Source: Pirellulales bacterium (lineage in GTDB: Bacteria; Planctomycetota; Planctomycetia; Pirellulales; JACPPG01). Taken from it: a DNA stretch of 35,195 bases. The notes under the pieces are model-generated. The model saw only the letters and a program-made list of their open reading frames with translations. It did no database searches and had not been told where the DNA came from. The stretch covers positions 1 to 35,195 of the forward strand of contig DASXEJ010000265.1 in NCBI GenBank assembly GCA_036490175.1, given 5' to 3'. Positions within the stretch are counted from its first letter, which is position 1, and each line of letters opens with the position of its first letter. The position numbers were made by a program, and so were the translations under genes. Below are positions 9,434 through 26,144 of this stretch, one piece after another.

Positions 9434-10159
9434 TTAGAGGGCTCGCTTGCGCCACCAGCCGACGCCACCAACGGTCAGTCCCAGCAGCGTCCAGACCAAG
9501 ACGCTCGCCGGCTCCGGTACCGCGCCTGGAATGTTTACGAGTCCGAGGCGAGCGTCTCCGTAGGCATCCTGTCCGCCGGCCACGCTGTAGCCGAACGATT
9601 GGCTTAGTCGCAGTTGTACGCTGCCCGACAAGGGCGAGAAGCCTGCCAAATTTAAGCTGTTTTCGGTGAACACGGCCCAGGGAATGGCAATCTCGATCAC
9701 CGTTGGGGCCGGCAAGGCAAGGGTGCCCGTCGTCATGGCATAGTTAATCTCGTTGTCCGCCGTCCCTGTGGCGTAGCCAACGTTGGTCGACCCACCGGGT
9801 ACGAAAGCATTGTTGTTTTCAATTTCAAAGCCAATCGTTGACCCGAGAATCGAATTGCCGAAATACAGGTTGGTAAATGTCAAACCGGTCGTGTTGTCGG
9901 ACGTGGTTTCTAAACCGACGTACAGATCGTTCGCATCGCCGGTCACGTAGATGTCGTAAGCAATACTATCCGTCGTACCGGTCGGAGCGCCAAAATTCCC
10001 TTCGGGCGCGCCAGGATCGTAGGTAACTTGCACCGGAGTTACTCCAGCCCAATCGGAACCGATGCTGCCATCCACGACAACGTCCGCAGTTGCCACCGCG
10101 GCAGAAGACACAACTGCCAGGACCAAGGTGCACACCACACATTGTAAAAGCTTCGACAT
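9434..10159 (-). CDS. PEP-CTERM sorted exported protein
   Basis: A 241-residue exported protein. It has an N-terminal signal peptide (MSKLLQCVVCTLVLAVVSSA, cleavage near ATA-D), a beta-rich Gly/Thr/Asn-rich body and a C-terminal sorting tag: VPEPAS, a hydrophobic segment and a basic WWRKRAL end. This tag is recognised by exosortase, which processes proteins at the cell envelope, often with exopolysaccharide. The body (VDGSIGSDW, a family-like opening seen in carbohydrate-binding type domains) is not enough to assign a ligand. GAGG lies seven bases before the ATG. A terminator follows, so it forms its own transcription unit with the structured leader at 10189-10258. Confidence 0.88.
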   Translation of the reverse strand: MSKLLQCVVCTLVLAVVSSAAVATADVVVDGSIGSDWAGVTPVQVTYDPGAPEGNFGAPTGTTDSIAYDIYVTGDANDLYVGLETTSDNTTGLTFTNLYFGNSILGSTIGFEIENNNAFVPGGSTNVGYATGTADNEINYAMTTGTLALPAPTVIEIAIPWAVFTENSLNLAGFSPLSGSVQLRLSQSFGYSVAGGQDAYGDARLGLVNIPGAVPEPASVLVWTLLGLTVGGVGWWRKRAL

Positions 10160-10463: not shown

Positions 10464-11366
10464 CTAGCGCGATTGACGGCGCCGATGGACACCGATTGCC
10501 AGCGCGATGCCAGCTGTCCAAATGGCGAAAGTGGCCGGCTCCGGAGTGGCGGCCGGAGGATTGGCAAAGTCGAAACCGGCGATGTTATCGACCGCCACCG
10601 AGTTGCCTGATCCGGCGTTCTCGCCGTTCATGTACATGAACAGCTCATTCGAGGTCGCCGTGTTGTCGATGCCGCCACGCAACGGATACGCGCTCGTTCC
10701 CAGCACGCCATTAACATACGCGTTGGCCGTGCCTGCCGCGTAATCCGCCACAACCGTGACCCGATTGTCTTGGCCGTTGGTGTACGATCCAAACGTCGTC
10801 AGGTTCGAGTTATCGACGTTGCGAAGGGCGTACACTCCCCCGTCAGGCCCCGTGGGGACCACGGCCACGCTAAACGCCCACTGACCATTGTCGCTGTTGG
10901 CGATTCTGGCACCGAAGAGGATCCCGGCGATGTCGCTCGGATCGCCATTGATGGTCATGGGTTGCGAGTTAGTAGTCGTCATGATCGACGGAGCCGTTAG
11001 AACGTCGATGTCGAAGGACAGCGTCATTTGCTCCGAGGCGACATTGAATCCGGTGTCCATGTACAAGGCACCCGTTTCGACGTTGGACGGAAGCGAGCTA
11101 AATACAGCTTGCTTCTGTGAATTCTGGACGAGAATCGTCCCCTCGGTGCTGGAATTTGGAGGGCTGTCTCCGTCTTCATTCTCAGTCGAGTAACCGCCCA
11201 GGGATCCCGGAGTCGTGATTACGGGGCCCGGCGGACCGACGGCCGGCGCAGATCCGACCGTGTCGCTGTTGAAGTTTTGGTCCAAAAATTGAATATCCGC
11301 CCGCACGATCGTGGACATCAGCGCGAGCACTCCTGCCACACAAGGCCCCATCATTAGCCGTTTCAT
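10464..11366 (-). CDS. PEP-CTERM sorted exported protein
   Basis: A 300-residue exported protein. From ATG 11366 it begins MKRLMMGPCVAGVLALMS, a signal peptide, with AAGG about nine bases upstream; the frame is open to 11399 but that start is less likely. The body is Asn/Ser/Gly-rich and beta-strand-like, and resembles lectin/LamG-like sandwiches seen in planctomycete surface proteins, though I see no sure family motif. The C-terminus is ATPEPATFAIW, a hydrophobic helix and RRRQSR, a PEP-CTERM tag for exosortase. It precedes the other PEP-CTERM gene in the same direction but with 304 bases between them. The two bodies are not obviously alike. Confidence 0.87.
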   Translation of the reverse strand: MKRLMMGPCVAGVLALMSTIVRADIQFLDQNFNSDTVGSAPAVGPPGPVITTPGSLGGYSTENEDGDSPPNSSTEGTILVQNSQKQAVFSSLPSNVETGALYMDTGFNVASEQMTLSFDIDVLTAPSIMTTTNSQPMTINGDPSDIAGILFGARIANSDNGQWAFSVAVVPTGPDGGVYALRNVDNSNLTTFGSYTNGQDNRVTVVADYAAGTANAYVNGVLGTSAYPLRGGIDNTATSNELFMYMNGENAGSGNSVAVDNIAGFDFANPPAATPEPATFAIWTAGIALAIGVHRRRQSR

Positions 11367-11460
11367 GCGCAAGCCTTTTCTTAAAAAGATGCTAATCACG
11401 AAGAATGATTTTTTTGATCCGAGTTCTCGCCGGAACCTAAAGACGATCTAGGTTTCGCAG

Positions 11461-17975: not shown

Positions 17976-18902
17976 ATGCATCGAATAATTGCCATTGCGG
18001 TTTCTCTTATGGTGCCAATGGGCTATGTGCCCGGCTTATGGGCCCAAATAAGCCCGTCCGGCTTTCAAGACCCCGCAGGCGCTAATCGCGGGGGAACCGG
18101 CAATCCGCCTAACGCGCCGCTTGCGCCTCTCGGAGGATCGACGCTGCCGCCAGGCGCGCCGGCCATGCCGCGAGAAATAGAAACCAATCCCGCGCTGCGT
18201 CAAGAAGTGCGGCACCCCTTTGGTTCGGCGATCTATCCGCACGCGCGCGGGTACGGTGAGGAAGAGGACCTAGAAACCAAGCCCAAAGATCCCGCAAAAG
18301 GATTCAATTTCAGCGAGCGACAGAATACGGGGCACGACGAGGCTTTTGTGGATAATGCCCATGTCGGCCCCGCTACGGGCAAGCTGGCTTCTGATTGGCG
18401 CTACGCCTTTTTCCAGGGGCGGCATTGGTACTGGATGCCGAACGAAACCTGGAACGTCTGGAATGGTAGCGCCTGGGTCCCGCACCGTTCAGGCATGTTC
18501 GCGGGCCGCGCTTACTTTGGATACGGCACGCAAGTGCGCGGGTACCGCTCGCTACCGCGCGGCTACAACAGCAGCACGTACGGTCAACCGTTAACCCGCT
18601 TGACTCAGCCAGACAGAGAAGGAACTGAGCGAAACGATCGCTACACAGCCCCGCTCGCCGGCACGAGTCGCGCTCTGACGGGAACCTCGGGCGGAGTAAC
18701 TCCGGTGCCGGGCGCCAATGCGCCCAACGCCCGTCGTCCACAGGTGAATCAGGCCGAGGTAGACCGCGCGCTCGCGAACGAATCGTCGCCCCGGACGCTC
18801 ACTGAACAAGAAGTAATCCAAGGCCCGTTCGATATTGAAGAGCCGGAAGACGCGCAGCCGGCGGCCGGCACGCTGCAAACATCTGGCACGGCGACGCCCT
18901 AA
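17976..18902 (+). CDS. Exported hypothetical protein
   Basis: A 308-residue protein with a signal peptide (MHRIIAIAVSLMVPMGYV, cleavage near LWA-Q). The mature region is Pro/Gly/Asn-rich with low-complexity stretches, and a Trp-rich core around residues 145-175 (HWYWMPNETWNVWN followed by WVPHR) resembling the short W-x-W sequence seen in planctomycete wall or surface proteins. A Lys/Glu-rich loop and a Gly/Tyr segment follow. No catalytic motif is visible. The ATG has GGAGG eight bases upstream. Not assigned to a family. Confidence 0.75.
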   Translation: MHRIIAIAVSLMVPMGYVPGLWAQISPSGFQDPAGANRGGTGNPPNAPLAPLGGSTLPPGAPAMPREIETNPALRQEVRHPFGSAIYPHARGYGEEEDLETKPKDPAKGFNFSERQNTGHDEAFVDNAHVGPATGKLASDWRYAFFQGRHWYWMPNETWNVWNGSAWVPHRSGMFAGRAYFGYGTQVRGYRSLPRGYNSSTYGQPLTRLTQPDREGTERNDRYTAPLAGTSRALTGTSGGVTPVPGANAPNARRPQVNQAEVDRALANESSPRTLTEQEVIQGPFDIEEPEDAQPAAGTLQTSGTATP

Positions 18903-20186: not shown

Positions 20187-21605
20187 TTACTGCTCCGACT
20201 TTGCTGATTGGGTGACCGCGGCCCGGATCATCCAATCCCCACCAAACGTTGGTTTCTTGGCGTCTTTACTCGGCAAGCCCACGAGCGAATGCTCGCCGCC
20301 AGTGCTAGTGTCGTAACTGACGTAGATCCCCTTGGTGGCCTCGGCGTTGAAATCGGCGACGATCCAGAACGACCGTGCCACCTCGACGGGTTTGTTGAAC
20401 TTCAATTCCACCCATTTGGCCTCGCCGCGCTCGAACCGTGCATACGGAGCCAGTTCCGTATGTAGAATTTGCTTTCGGTCATCGGCCAGGACATAAATCT
20501 TGAAGTCCTCCGTCGGTGCCTGGGGACGGCCATAGCGTGCGCCGTGTAGTTCGATGCCTGTCAGCAGCATATTGTCCGCCGGGGCGGCGAAGCGAATCAT
20601 TTCCCCAGCGCCGGCAATGCTCTTTTTGCCGTCCGGTGCTCCGTCACCATAGGCGAGTACGGTCGGTTCATTACCGCCGGCTGCCGGTTCCTTGGCTGTT
20701 GGAAGCGGCAGCTGGGCCGCGGCCACTGATGTGGCATCAACGGGCAATCCTACCGTGGCAACACGGTCTTCCAGCGCCGAGGACACCGTTGTTCGTGTGG
20801 GGAAACCCCATGCCAGCGCGGCTGCGCAGCCGGCAATCGATACAACTTCGATCATGTTTATCATGCGTCGGATCTCCGGTCTGGCAATCTTGCTAACGCT
20901 GGCAGGCGAATTCACGTTTACCGCATGCATCGCGGTCGCTATATCGGTCCCTTGACAGACATGGGCCAGAAGCGCAGCGGGCAATTGCTCACTCTGAATC
21001 GCTTCCAGGGCCAGGCCCGCCACGGGCATGCGGTCTACGCCACGCATCTTTAACCGCGCTCGCAATTCACGTCGGGCCCTTTGCAAGCGTCCCTTGAGCG
21101 CAGTTGGACTCAGCTCAAGCGCCCTGCAGATCTGCGCAGAGGACTGCTCTAACAGGTAACGCATTACAAGCGGATCGCGATACTTGGGCGGTAGGTGGTT
21201 CAATTCGTCGTATAAAATCTCGGTTTCATACACGTCGGCAATGGTGGCCGAGCGTTCGCAATCAACAACGACCTCGCGCTCGAGCGCGCACTCGCGGCGG
21301 CGCAAATATCGTCGCCGCAAACGCATGCTGATTCGGAACGCGGCACCGTAGAGCCAGCTCCCCACGGAATTTGCCTGGCGAATCCGATCCGCCTTTTCCG
21401 TAAACGTCAAAAACGTTGCTTGAAAGGCGTCCTCAGCATCGTGTCGCTGTCGCGTCAGGCGCGAACAGACCTGCCAAACCAGCGGACCGTGTCTCTCGAC
21501 GAGCGCGCAGAACGATTGCTGGTCCCGTGATTCGACAAAACGCGTCAACAGTTCACGGTCTGCAACAAGCGGGACACTGGCGGTTGTAAAGCCGGTATCT
21601 AACAT
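20187..21605 (-). CDS. ECF sigma factor with membrane anchor and extracytoplasmic C-domain
   Basis: A 472-residue protein. Residues about 15-95 are sigma region 2 (LLTRFVESRDQQSFCALVER; then RHDAEDAFQATFLTF and SVGSWLYGAAFRISM), and about 130-185 region 4 (LPPKYRDPLVMRYLLEQSSA, with the DNA-binding SPTALKGRLQRARREL). A single hydrophobic segment at about 250-268 (IEVVSIAGCAAALAWGF) looks like a membrane anchor. A Gly/Ala/Pro-rich link follows, then a beta-rich domain of about 140 residues (IELHGARYGRPQAP; YVLADDRKQIL; WVELKFNKPVEVARSFWIVADF; KGIYVSYDTSTGGEHSL). The fused domain recurs in planctomycete sigma factors and membrane proteins; its ligand is unknown. AGGGG precedes ATG 21605. Confidence 0.88.
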   Translation of the reverse strand: MLDTGFTTASVPLVADRELLTRFVESRDQQSFCALVERHGPLVWQVCSRLTRQRHDAEDAFQATFLTFTEKADRIRQANSVGSWLYGAAFRISMRLRRRYLRRRECALEREVVVDCERSATIADVYETEILYDELNHLPPKYRDPLVMRYLLEQSSAQICRALELSPTALKGRLQRARRELRARLKMRGVDRMPVAGLALEAIQSEQLPAALLAHVCQGTDIATAMHAVNVNSPASVSKIARPEIRRMINMIEVVSIAGCAAALAWGFPTRTTVSSALEDRVATVGLPVDATSVAAAQLPLPTAKEPAAGGNEPTVLAYGDGAPDGKKSIAGAGEMIRFAAPADNMLLTGIELHGARYGRPQAPTEDFKIYVLADDRKQILHTELAPYARFERGEAKWVELKFNKPVEVARSFWIVADFNAEATKGIYVSYDTSTGGEHSLVGLPSKDAKKPTFGGDWMIRAAVTQSAKSEQ

Positions 21606-21707: not shown

Positions 21708-22574
21708 TCAGAATTCGATCGTGGCGGCGTCGAAGACGGGGCCTTCCACGCAGGTACGGCGGTAGTCCCAATTGCCGGCCTCGTCGCGCACTTTGGCGAC
21801 GCAGCTAAAGCAGATACCGATGCCGCAAGCCATCGGTGATTCGAGCGAGACTTCGCAAGGGATGGTCGCTACGGCGGCGATTTTCGCCACGGCGTGCATC
21901 ATCGGCTCGGGCCCGCAACAGACGATATGCGATGGCGGCGTGGGGCCATTGATCTCTTGACGCAACAGGTCGGTCACCAGACCATGATGCCCGGTCGAAC
22001 CGTCATCGGTGCTGGTGAGCACGCGGACTCCGAGTGAGGCGAAGTCGGCCACCCCGGCCAGGTATTCTTGGCTGCGCGCCCCATAGCATAGCGTGACCTG
22101 TTTTGCGGCCGCGGCACGCGGCACGGTGCCGAACACGCGCTTCCCCAGATACTCTCGCGCCAATGCCATAAAGGGCGTCTGTCCAATGCCGCCCGCCACC
22201 ATCATCAGGTGATCGGTCGCGCGCGGGGCAAAGCCATTTCCCAGCGGGCCCCAGGTATCCAGTTTCTGCCCAGGTACGGCTTGTGCTAACCGAGAAGTGA
22301 ACTTGCCCACAACGAGGTAAACGACGTCGAGTCCCGTTGGTGCGCCATAGGCATCAACCACGGTGTCGTACAGCGCCAGCGGTCGCCCCAGCAGCGGATC
22401 GTTGCAGCCTGCCAGGCGCATCATCAGAAACTGGCCCGGCACGATGCGTTGGGCGATTTCAGGACAGTCGAACCGCACGCGAAACGTGTCGCGGGCGAGC
22501 CGCACATTCTCACGTACCACGACCGTGCGCGAGACAGCATGGTCGGCAAAGCAGGTCGCATCCGTGAGGCCCAT
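21708..22574 (-). CDS. pyrK: Dihydroorotate dehydrogenase electron-transfer subunit (PyrK-like)
   Basis: PyrK carries electrons from the FMN dihydroorotate dehydrogenase PyrD(B) to NAD via FAD and a 2Fe-2S cluster, in pyrimidine synthesis. The 288-residue protein has the FAD-binding RPLALYD (64-70), the nucleotide-binding GGIGQTP (128-134), and the four cluster cysteines 250, 255, 258 and 275 (ESPMACGIGICFSC, RRTCVEGPV). It starts at 22574, where the ATG overlaps the rluB stop by one base, so translation is coupled. The partner pyrD is not in the window. The pairing with an rRNA modification gene is not functionally obvious. Confidence 0.92.
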   Translation of the reverse strand: MGLTDATCFADHAVSRTVVVRENVRLARDTFRVRFDCPEIAQRIVPGQFLMMRLAGCNDPLLGRPLALYDTVVDAYGAPTGLDVVYLVVGKFTSRLAQAVPGQKLDTWGPLGNGFAPRATDHLMMVAGGIGQTPFMALAREYLGKRVFGTVPRAAAAKQVTLCYGARSQEYLAGVADFASLGVRVLTSTDDGSTGHHGLVTDLLRQEINGPTPPSHIVCCGPEPMMHAVAKIAAVATIPCEVSLESPMACGIGICFSCVAKVRDEAGNWDYRRTCVEGPVFDAATIEF

Positions 22575-23863
22575 CAGCCGCGGCGTCCTTTGCGCTTGTG
22601 CCGGACGATCGTGCCGGCAGGCTTGCTGCCGCTCCGCCCTTCGCGCGGGGGCTTCTTATGGCCCGATTCTGCAACACCTCCGCGCGGCGGCCTTTTGCCG
22701 ACGGCGGGCGTTGCGCCGTCGCGAGATTTTACTTTTTCGACTCGCCCTCGATCCGTGCGCGTTCTGCCCGTCGATGGCCTCTCAGAGGGCGCCCGATCGC
22801 TTCGGGAGCCGTCCGACGGTTTTCTTCCGAGCGCTATCTTGCCGATCGGCAGCTTTGCAACCGGCGTCTCGCCAATGACGGTTCCTTGGCGAACCGATTG
22901 CGGCAACGGCCTTTCGACCTCGCGGGCACGCTCTTTGGCGACCGGCGGCTTTTGTTCCACTGGCGCCGCGTCCGTGGCCGGCCGCGGCCGACTTGGTGCG
23001 GGCCCTTTCGTAGACGGCTTGCTAGCGCGGGCCAGACGGTTGCGTCGATGATCGCGCAGCCCCTTCACTTCGTCAGATGTCAAACGTCGGCTTTCGCCTG
23101 CAGCTAGTTCGCCCAGGCGGACATTGCCGATCGCGATGCGTTTGAGCCGCAGCACCTTGTGCCCAACCTTGGCCAACACGCGGCGGATCTCGCGGTTCTT
23201 GCCTTCGCTGAGCACGATTTCGAGCAATGCGCTTTGCTTCAAAGTCTTCTTGACGCGGGCGCCCGTGACGCGAGCCACTCCTTCGGCCAGATAGACTCCG
23301 CGGCGCAGCGTGGCGAGGACTTCCAAGTCGGGCGTGCCGGCCACCAGCACGTGATACGTCTTCTCGACTTCGTAGCGCGGATGAGCCAGCCGATTGGCCA
23401 ATTCGCCATCGTTGGTGAGCAATATCAGCCCCTCGCTCGACATATCGAGCCGCCCAACGGCAAATAGCCGCTCGCTGACGTGGGGCAACAGATCGATCAC
23501 CCGTGGCCGACCTGATGGATCGAAGTTGGTCGACACAACGCCCTGCGGCTTGTTGACGATGAAGTACGCCAATCGTGTGCCCGCAAGCGCCGTGCCGTCG
23601 ACTGAAACGCGCGCATGTGGCGCAACTTTGGTGCCAAGTTCGACGACGGTCTTGCCGTCGATCTCGACGCGTCCACTGGTGATCAACTCTTCGCACTGTC
23701 GGCGGCTGCCAACCCCTGCACGAGCCATGAATTTTTGCAACCGCACTGCGCCGCCGGGCGCCTCGCCCTCTGGTTTGCGGGACGCATCAGCCCCTTTCCG
23801 CTCTGCCCGTTTGCGCGGGCTTGCAGGGGAGCGATCTTTTTGGGGGGCGCGAACTCGCTTCAT
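22574..23863 (-). CDS. rluB: 23S rRNA pseudouridine synthase, RluB/RsuA family
   Basis: A 429-residue pseudouridine synthase. Residues 41-88 form an S4 RNA-binding domain (RLQKFMARAGVGSRRQCEEL), and the catalytic domain follows with Asp140 in GRLDMSSEGLILLTNDGEL and the KNREIRR motif at 222-228. The N-terminus (about 40 residues) and, unusually, the C-terminus from about 270 to 429 are Arg/Lys/Ser/Pro-rich and predicted disordered. Members of this family modify a 23S rRNA uridine; the exact site and RluB versus RsuA/RluE naming are inferred. It is the first gene of a coupled pair with pyrK. Confidence 0.92.
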   Translation of the reverse strand: MKRVRAPQKDRSPASPRKRAERKGADASRKPEGEAPGGAVRLQKFMARAGVGSRRQCEELITSGRVEIDGKTVVELGTKVAPHARVSVDGTALAGTRLAYFIVNKPQGVVSTNFDPSGRPRVIDLLPHVSERLFAVGRLDMSSEGLILLTNDGELANRLAHPRYEVEKTYHVLVAGTPDLEVLATLRRGVYLAEGVARVTGARVKKTLKQSALLEIVLSEGKNREIRRVLAKVGHKVLRLKRIAIGNVRLGELAAGESRRLTSDEVKGLRDHRRNRLARASKPSTKGPAPSRPRPATDAAPVEQKPPVAKERAREVERPLPQSVRQGTVIGETPVAKLPIGKIALGRKPSDGSRSDRAPSERPSTGRTRTDRGRVEKVKSRDGATPAVGKRPPRGGVAESGHKKPPREGRSGSKPAGTIVRHKRKGRRG

Positions 23864-24006: not shown

Positions 24007-24294
24007 TTACGGCCCCGAGGCCTGCCAACGATCGGGTGCCATGCCGGCGCCGGTTGCCGGGCTGATCGAACGGATCGCGCGGTCGGCTTCCGGCGGAGGA
24101 TTGAGGTAATCGCGCGGTCGCGCGCTGCCGTCGTCGTGCAATGTCGTGGAGTCCGGATAGGGATCGAACCGTTGGGCGCGCGTCCGCTGTGTGCGAGCCG
24201 TGCCCGGCGTGAACCAATCCGGTCCAGCGATATCAGAACAGCCCGCAAGCGCAACAAGCAAAGGCACAGTGAAAACTGCGACACCATAAGCCAC
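24007..24294 (-). CDS. Small lipoprotein with DPYP/PPPEA motif
   Basis: A 95-residue lipoprotein. I start it at GTG 24294, nine bases after GGAGG, because this frame gives a signal with lipobox VALAGC (Cys at about residue 18). The mature part contains AQRFDPYP, an 11-residue spacer, RPRDYLN and PPPEADRA. The same spacing occurs in the next upstream gene. The Pro-rich body suggests an extended, surface-exposed protein. No fold is recognised. It precedes rluB by 143 bases. An alternative ATG out of frame at about 24287 lacks the lipobox. Confidence 0.65.
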   Translation of the reverse strand: MAYGVAVFTVPLLVALAGCSDIAGPDWFTPGTARTQRTRAQRFDPYPDSTTLHDDGSARPRDYLNPPPEADRAIRSISPATGAGMAPDRWQASGP

Positions 24295-24571
24295 AGGGCA
24301 ATTCCTCCGTGGAATGCATCTCGCCCGAACGGGCACGTACGAGACTCTACCCAATCGGGTGCCATCGCGCGCTCGACTGCGCGGCGGAGCTTGACCCAAC
24401 GAGCGTGGGGCGCCGGCAAGCGATTAGGCGCGGCGGATTATAGGCGCAGCAGGCGCGCTAATGGAAGGCGAAACCAAGCCCGCTAGCAGGCGAGGTGCTA
24501 TCGCCGTCAACGACTGCGACGTGCGCAATGCCAAGCAAGAGGACTCTGCAGTCGATGGTCTGCCCCCCTTG

Positions 24572-24961
24572 CTATTCCGCAGGCTGCACAACCTCGGGGG
24601 TCGCCGGAGCCTGCACCACCGGCGCCGTGCGGCGCGACGATGGAAGCCGCTTGCGAATGTTTGGATAATCGACCGGGGCTGAAGAACGCAACCAAGGAGC
24701 CGAACGCGGAAATGTGCCCGGGTTTGGGTAGCGCCCGCGCGTGGCTTCCGGAGGTGGATCGAAGAACCCGCGTGGACGCGTGCTATCGGTCGGTGTGCCC
24801 ACGCCCGGTAGCGGGTAAGGATCCCAGATTTGGGCGTCGGCAATTTGCGCGCGAGGCGGGGGGGGATCGAAAAGGCGCGGCATTTGGATGTTGCCCGCCA
24901 AAGTTTGCGCTGCCGTCAAAGTTACCAGGATCGCAACCACCGGCCCCGAGATGCGACGCAT
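24572..24961 (-). CDS. Small exported protein with DPYP/PPPEA motif (paralogue of the 24007 gene)
   Basis: A 129-residue protein with a signal peptide from MRRISGPVVAILVTLTAAQT and a likely cleavage after TLA. The body contains AQIWDPYP, an 11-residue spacer, RPRGFFD and PPPEATR, matching the downstream lipoprotein without a gap over about 49 residues (some 19 identities by my count). It has no lipobox cysteine. The Pro-rich tail ends in VVQAPATPEVVQPAE. GGGAGA lies eight bases before ATG 24961; an in-frame extension to 25117 is not supported. Likely a duplicated surface protein of unknown use. Confidence 0.68.
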   Translation of the reverse strand: MRRISGPVVAILVTLTAAQTLAGNIQMPRLFDPPPPRAQIADAQIWDPYPLPGVGTPTDSTRPRGFFDPPPEATRGRYPNPGTFPRSAPWLRSSAPVDYPNIRKRLPSSRRTAPVVQAPATPEVVQPAE

Positions 24962-25172: not shown

Positions 25173-26144
25173 CTAAGGCAAATAGGCGTCCAGCACAATC
25201 GCGCTGGACGCTGGAATCAGCTGAGTCGAGCCGCGTTGAGCGGGTAGCAGAATGGTGTCGCCCAAAACAAGAGGCCGCGCGACAGGATCACCGCTGATAG
25301 AAACCGAGCCTGCTAACACGCTAAGAATGTGAAAGCGATCATCGCTGACAACTTCCCGTGGCGCGCTCAACGTCAATCGATCGAGTAGGAATTTATCGCA
25401 AGCAACCAGGCGCTCACGCTGCGACTCGTCTGTAACCATCGGTCGTACCGGTGATACAGGGCCGATGGCATAATCGATTGCGTCGAGCGCCGCGTCGATA
25501 TGCAGATCGCGTGGCTGCCCGTCCGGTCCCACGCGATTCCAATCGAACAGCCGCCAGGTCGTATCGCTCGCTTGTTGAATCTCGGCCACGACCAGCCCTG
25601 CGCCGATCGCATGCACGACACCGGCAGGTAAAAAAATACAGTCGCCGACCTGGGGTGAAAAACTGTGTAGGCACAAGTCGCATGTACCGCGTGACAACTC
25701 GCGTGCCAGTGCCGCGCGATCGAAGCCGCGCTTCAGGCCCGCATAGATCAAGCTGCCCGGTTCGGCGGCCAGCACGACCCAGGCTTCGGTCTTGCCAAGA
25801 TCTGGCGGCAACAGCCGCGCGGCACGCGTATCGTCAGGATGAACCTGCACGGAGAGCTTTTCCCGCGCATCGAGAAACTTGTAGAGCAACGGAAATCGCG
25901 ACTGCGGGGCGTGCCGGCCGAGCAGTTCGCCGCCCCGCTCATTTACAAGATTTGCCAGCGTCGTCCCTTCGAGCGGTCCACCAGCGACGATGCTTTGATC
26001 GGCGTCGTGATCGCAAATCTCCCAACTTTCGGCACATGTGGCACTATCCCCAATGGGCTTGTTCAGCAGCGTTGCCAGCCTTTGCCCACCCCACAGGTAG
26101 CGTCGGAAAAGGGGTTGAAAGCGAAGCGGATAAAGCGGCGTCAT
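25173..26144 (-). CDS. manA: Mannose-6-phosphate isomerase, class I
   Basis: ManA interconverts fructose-6-phosphate and mannose-6-phosphate, feeding mannose into sugar-nucleotide synthesis. The 323-residue protein has the cupin zinc site of the compact class I form: Gln100 and His102 in QVHPDD, Glu120 in KTEAW, and His178 in GVVHAIG, plus the LFDWNR motif. The N-terminal RYLWGG segment is typical. It is divergent from tatC (261 bases) and upstream of the two small exported genes on the minus strand. Confidence 0.94.
   Translation of the reverse strand: MTPLYPLRFQPLFRRYLWGGQRLATLLNKPIGDSATCAESWEICDHDADQSIVAGGPLEGTTLANLVNERGGELLGRHAPQSRFPLLYKFLDAREKLSVQVHPDDTRAARLLPPDLGKTEAWVVLAAEPGSLIYAGLKRGFDRAALARELSRGTCDLCLHSFSPQVGDCIFLPAGVVHAIGAGLVVAEIQQASDTTWRLFDWNRVGPDGQPRDLHIDAALDAIDYAIGPVSPVRPMVTDESQRERLVACDKFLLDRLTLSAPREVVSDDRFHILSVLAGSVSISGDPVARPLVLGDTILLPAQRGSTQLIPASSAIVLDAYLP

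Follow-up and report, generated by a model that had tools for sequence, protein, structure and literature searches.

A planctomycete-restricted family of small lipoproteins with a conserved linear core and a soluble paralogue in one genus

We analysed a window of 35,195 nucleotides (contig DASXEJ010000265.1 of the Pirellulales bacterium assembly GCA_036490175.1, positions 1 to 35,195 of the forward strand) that carries two short neighbouring genes for exported proteins, designated here gene 1 and gene 2. Both lie on the minus strand between manA and an rluB-like gene, with a divergent tatC located upstream of manA. The features of the locus are as follows.

22574..23863, minus strand: rluB-like S4/RNA pseudouridylate synthase (Pfam S4 and PseudoU_synth_2), the downstream neighbour
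24007..24294 (stop included), minus strand: gene 1, small lipoprotein of 95 amino acids, from the ORF and its translation
24085..24231, minus strand: conserved 49-residue core of gene 1 (IAGPDWFTPGTARTQRTRAQRFDPYP...ARPRDYLNPPPEA), from the gapless match to gene 2 and the conserved columns of family alignment A1
24238..24240, minus strand: lipobox cysteine of gene 1 (ALAG/C, the stroke marking cleavage), from the sequence
24572..24961 (stop included), minus strand: gene 2, exported paralogue without lipobox, 129 amino acids, from the ORF and BLASTP to gene 1
24620..24721, minus strand: C-terminal block of gene 2, PGTFPR..PWL.S.APVDYPNIRKRL.SSRRTAP, from the alignment of five genus orthologues
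24743..24889, minus strand: conserved 49-residue core of gene 2 (IQMPRLFDPPPPRAQIADAQIWDPYP...TRPRGFFDPPPEA), from the gapless match to gene 1
25173..26144, minus strand: manA, type I mannose-6-phosphate isomerase (Pfam PMI_typeI_cat), the upstream neighbour

The best start of gene 1 is a GTG at 24294 with GGAGG nine bases 5′ of it, and the N-terminus reads VAYGVAVFTVPLLVALAG up to the predicted cleavage site before the lipobox cysteine, followed by CSDIAGPDWFTPGTARTQRTRAQRFDPYP... in the mature chain. Its lipobox, LVALAG/C, conforms to that of bacterial lipoproteins processed as Lgt/Lsp substrates. Gene 2 begins with ATG and encodes an ordinary signal peptide; with no cysteine anywhere in its sequence it does not qualify as a lipoprotein. 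BLASTP aligned the two proteins with 27 identities over 68 positions (E=1e-10), and their best gapless 49-residue match contains 21 identities, whereas 300 shuffled controls averaged 10.8 and never exceeded 15. This confirms the first-pass annotation of the locus, which had described small exported paralogues in tandem with a gapless match of about 49 residues and around 19 identities. Its further claim of a duplicated pair with one lipid-anchored and one unanchored member also holds, the difference in anchoring being present in all five genomes of the genus.

Elsewhere in the window two neighbouring minus-strand genes (9434-10159 and 10464-11399) encode exported proteins with PEP-CTERM-like tails, VPEPASVLVWTLLGLTVGGVGWWRKR and TPEPATFAIWTAGIALAIGVHRRR, which suggests that an exosortase sorting system may operate in this genome. 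An ECF-type sigma factor (Sigma70_r2, r4_2) at 20187-21605 on the minus strand has a C-terminal extension of nearly 300 residues without Pfam cover, and a plus-strand gene at 17976-18902 encodes an exported protein of 308 residues containing the stretch WYWMPNETWNVWNGSAWVPH and without a Pfam match.

A search with gene 1 identified a homologue in 52 of the 57 genomes searched, its own genome counted, and an alignment of 42 homologues from this search gave the profile A1. With A1, family members turned up in 79 of the 82 genomes sampled from the order, and 62 genomes of one further family (f22) in the same class were also positive. A profile combining members of both groups, run over 392 genomes of the phylum, had 39 positives, every one of them from the order or from f22. 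A narrower profile search of genome contigs yielded 12 loci. No member was found in the other sampled lineages of the class or phylum, and scoring up to 150 candidates per genome brought up no convincing member in f21, f23, f24 or f25, families of the same class. Records with the gene carry the names Pirellula sp., Pirellulales, Thermoguttaceae, Planctomycetaceae and unplaced planctomycete bacteria, and judging from these the order is probably the Pirellulales. Genomes outside the genus nearly always have one copy of the lipoprotein gene. Gene 1 is thus shown to belong to a planctomycete-restricted family of small lipoproteins, usually present once per genome and sharing a strongly conserved linear core. 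The homologues extend far beyond the close relatives to which a local duplication, the outcome that the annotation had named as fatal to its own proposal, would have been confined.

The core of the family can be written P..F.PG...Q..RA.RFDPYP..d.GP...G.RPR.Y..P.PE..R, and members share a common layout that starts with a Gly-Cys lipobox and a short Q..RA helix, continues with DP[YF]P, a gap of ten or eleven residues and RP, and finishes with P.PE..R and a variable tail. A lipobox is present in essentially every member from the order. Glycine precedes the cysteine in 45 of 50 tabulated motifs and aspartate occupies position +2 in none, the table including a few misassigned positions such as that of the soluble copy of genome G004. 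The absence of aspartate at +2 agrees with the Lol rule for outer-membrane lipoproteins, which is an enterobacterial rule and may not hold in planctomycetes. The mature chain has a median length of 72 residues. Invariant positions in A1 are the lipobox cysteine, Gln33, Asp41, Arg56 and Pro57 (first-row numbering); the invariant set of the mixed alignment A3 consists of Gly-Cys, Asp-Pro and Arg-Pro. The conserved residues are distributed at fixed spacing over about 45 positions, flanked by a variable signal peptide and a variable tail which in some members, such as those at loci L050 and L061, is long and proline-rich. The identical spacing of DPYP and RPR noted in the pair recurs across the family, with a DPYP-to-RP gap of 11 residues in 40 of 54 proteins from the order and of 10 residues in 18 of 20 proteins in the set from the second family.

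AlphaFold2 models of the two proteins were of low confidence (pLDDT 62 and 63), having been built from shallow alignments of 13 and 10 rows limited to window and related-locus sequences, and contained little structure beyond the signal helix. The main element was a single short helix, spanning residues 33-42 or 36-45, that covers ARTQRTRAQR or the corresponding segment, accompanied in gene 1 by an additional low-confidence helix near residue 70. The models may therefore miss a small fold, whether one adopted only on binding a partner or one that more aligned sequences would bring out.

Both genes adjoin manA in all five genomes of the genus, with a soluble orthologue in each of the four other genomes, and the soluble copy is limited to the genus. 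In a tree of the family the two copies from the five genus genomes make up one clade each, with support of 100/99 and 98/94, placing the duplication before the divergence of these five genomes; the same tree resolves the two genus clades but, with too few columns, not their relation to the remaining family. The C-terminal block of gene 2 is absent from gene 1 and kept in four of the five gene 2 orthologues, that of G004 retaining only its beginning, PGTFPR..P. Gene 2 is thereby shown to be a paralogue at genus level in which the core was retained and the lipid anchor lost, and which carries a C-terminal block of its own. Tandem duplications of the lipoprotein occur in other lineages at L055 (G044) and L063 (G032), where both copies have a lipobox, so that among the genomes examined loss of the anchor is specific to the genus. 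At L037 (G001) and L039 (G003) the lipoprotein gene is inverted, the order of manA, gene 2, rluB and pyrK being unchanged. The idea that the pair constitutes a functional unit was not borne out, the lipoprotein nearly always standing as a single copy outside the genus.

Comparisons between species of the genus (five genomes) gave dN/dS values of roughly 0.06-0.38 for gene 1 and gene 2 alike, synonymous sites being nearly saturated, and on this basis both are coding. Gene 1 and gene 2 are under purifying selection. The codon-level selection whose absence the annotation would have counted against the pair was found in both frames, ruling out a non-coding or neutral repeat.

Among the 45 loci of the order outside the genus, a co-directional manA lies upstream in 28 and a co-directional rluB downstream in 21; one or both are present in 32, and a divergent tatC in 16. 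The remaining 13 loci keep the gene with neither manA nor rluB detected nearby, as do all 18 loci examined in f22. The annotation had asked whether pairs are conserved next to rluB or manA; both are conserved neighbours of the lipoprotein within the order, but it is nearly always a single copy and not a pair that they accompany outside the genus. In seven of the 18 f22 loci (L099, L106, L107, L112-L115) the downstream gene encodes an exported prenyltransferase-toroid-repeat protein and the next an NPCBM/NEW2-domain protein, both assigned by Pfam on one example of each, and a glycosyltransferase adjoins the gene in three of the 18. Since the neighbours differ in f22, the conserved order reads as ancestral gene order and not as a functional link. 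Besides manA and rluB, pyrK and tatC are also conserved neighbours in the order. We rejected an assignment of function from these four, the gene being kept where neither manA nor rluB was detected nearby at 13 of 45 loci in the order and 18 of 18 in f22.

Neither protein matched Pfam-A or NCBIfam at E values up to 10, and searches with relatives (18 against Pfam, 42 against NCBIfam) gave scattered marginal hits only. A sequence-profile search of PDB chains returned no matches at E up to 10, and no description of the family or its motif was found among searchable papers on small planctomycete lipoproteins. The annotation's remark that no named family applies is upheld by the lack of matches in Pfam, NCBIfam and PDB. 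The family is new and uncatalogued, while its kind, the small lineage-restricted lipoprotein, is familiar. Braun's lipoprotein Lpp is a small outer-membrane lipoprotein that forms a coiled-coil trimer and is linked to peptidoglycan through its C-terminal lysine. The proteins described here resemble Lpp in their predicted architecture of a small outer-membrane lipoprotein but are proline-rich, and gene 1 ends in ASGP, without the C-terminal lysine of Lpp, while its orthologues end variously. As proteins of unknown function restricted to a lineage they resemble the planctomycete-specific hypothetical proteins of Planctopirus limnophila, in which 1477 of 4258 proteins are confined to the Planctomycetes and 108 proteins of unknown function are both essential and phylum-specific (PMC10632474).

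LptM (YifL) of Enterobacteriaceae is a small outer-membrane lipoprotein of ~6 kDa that docks on LptD/LptE and whose mature chain combines a conserved N-terminal part with a dynamic C-terminus (PMC10567701). The present family would resemble it as a small lipoprotein with a proposed mode of docking on an envelope machine, a likeness of mode and not of descent, but its conserved motif differs and it is restricted to planctomycetes. The LptM model (NCBIfam NF047847) was touched weakly by two of 42 members (best E=0.061), too weakly for membership, and gene 1 itself gave no listed match to it at E up to 10.

The reading that we favour, tentatively and at somewhat less than even confidence, is that a small outer-membrane lipoprotein docks an extended linear motif onto a partner in the envelope, and that the paralogue offers this motif as a soluble protein. 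Export, lipidation and conservation of the predicted lipoprotein are well supported from sequence; outer-membrane localisation, by analogy with the enterobacterial +2 rule, and docking onto a partner are steps that we infer. The lipoprotein would leave the cytoplasm through Sec and receive its lipid at the Gly-Cys lipobox; lacking aspartate at +2, it would then be delivered to the outer membrane. Its mature chain would be mostly unstructured, with the core (Q..RA helix, DPYP turn and extended GP...RPRxY...PPPE..R) docking as one continuous peptide and the variable tail acting as a spacer. The docking target would be a conserved envelope protein for which the lipoprotein serves as an assembly or stabilising adaptor. 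In the genus the soluble copy would show the same docking peptide in the periplasm, serving there as a further adaptor with an additional contact surface, or regulating the site to which the lipoprotein docks.

The docking model draws on the lipobox without +2 aspartate, a core of fixed spacing between a variable signal peptide and tail, and predicted disorder. It draws also on how widely the family is kept (79 of 82 sampled genomes in the order, 62 in the second family), on purifying selection on both copies, on the retention of both in five of five genus genomes, each as a supported clade, and on LptM docking on LptD/LptE as a precedent (PMC10567701). Against the model, no partner was found and gene order points to none, manA, rluB and pyrK being housekeeping genes whose order is not kept in f22, and the structure models are of low confidence, resting on 13 and 10 sequences. 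Also against it stands the absence from the other families of the class, which implies that the partner, or the need for it, is lineage-specific.

The annotation itself had suggested a surface or scaffold function with one membrane-bound and one soluble member. On such a reading the lipoprotein would be a repeated structural element of the planctomycete envelope, for example of a coat or of surface pits, with the soluble copy co-assembling. The lipid anchor, the proline-rich composition and the long proline-rich tails of L050 and L061 are compatible with such an element, as is the suggestion of envelope carbohydrate from the toroid-repeat and NPCBM genes that follow seven of the 18 f22 loci. 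We consider it unlikely nonetheless, given a short chain that is as a rule present once per genome, in which no self-association domain is predicted and whose neighbours are not conserved between lineages; the predicted disorder is no less compatible with a linear-motif adaptor than with a scaffold. Less likely again is that the soluble paralogue acts as a decoy titrating the partner of the lipoprotein, such that the copies are opposed and not cooperating: the same core does occur without an anchor in five of five genus genomes, but the conserved C-terminal block of gene 2 suggests an additional function.

A role tied to manA, for example in a mannose-containing surface polysaccharide, would account for the co-directional manA immediately upstream at 28 of 45 loci and for the adjacent glycosyltransferase at three f22 loci, but the gene persists at the 13 loci of the order and the 18 of f22 without manA or rluB detected nearby, and we regard this role as improbable. 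That the family is the planctomycete equivalent of LptM, with LptD as its target, seems more improbable still. Size, lipobox and disorder are similar and two of 42 members touch the LptM model, but that match is marginal and limited to those two, and recognisable LptD is commonest in f23, a family without the lipoprotein. LptD was mostly undetected where the lipoprotein occurs and no correlation between the two was seen, the LptD model being too weak in this class to decide the matter. The composition rich in proline and arginine could have indicated a low-complexity or non-coding duplication without function; this is refuted, to near certainty, by purifying selection on both copies, the spread of homologues throughout an order and a second family, and the fixed motif spacing.

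The docking reading could be extended, speculatively and with little confidence, to a family that acts as a core envelope factor specific to the order and one other family of the class: its members would be the lipid-anchored subunit, bearing the linear motif, of an outer-membrane machine peculiar to planctomycetes, and the soluble copy of the genus would have been recruited as a distinct subunit. The planctomycete envelope is unusual, and many of its proteins have no counterpart elsewhere. A lipoprotein that is small, almost universal and present once per genome, with a fixed docking-like motif, offers a compact handle on its machinery, and a genus with both anchored and soluble copies provides a natural comparison of the two forms.
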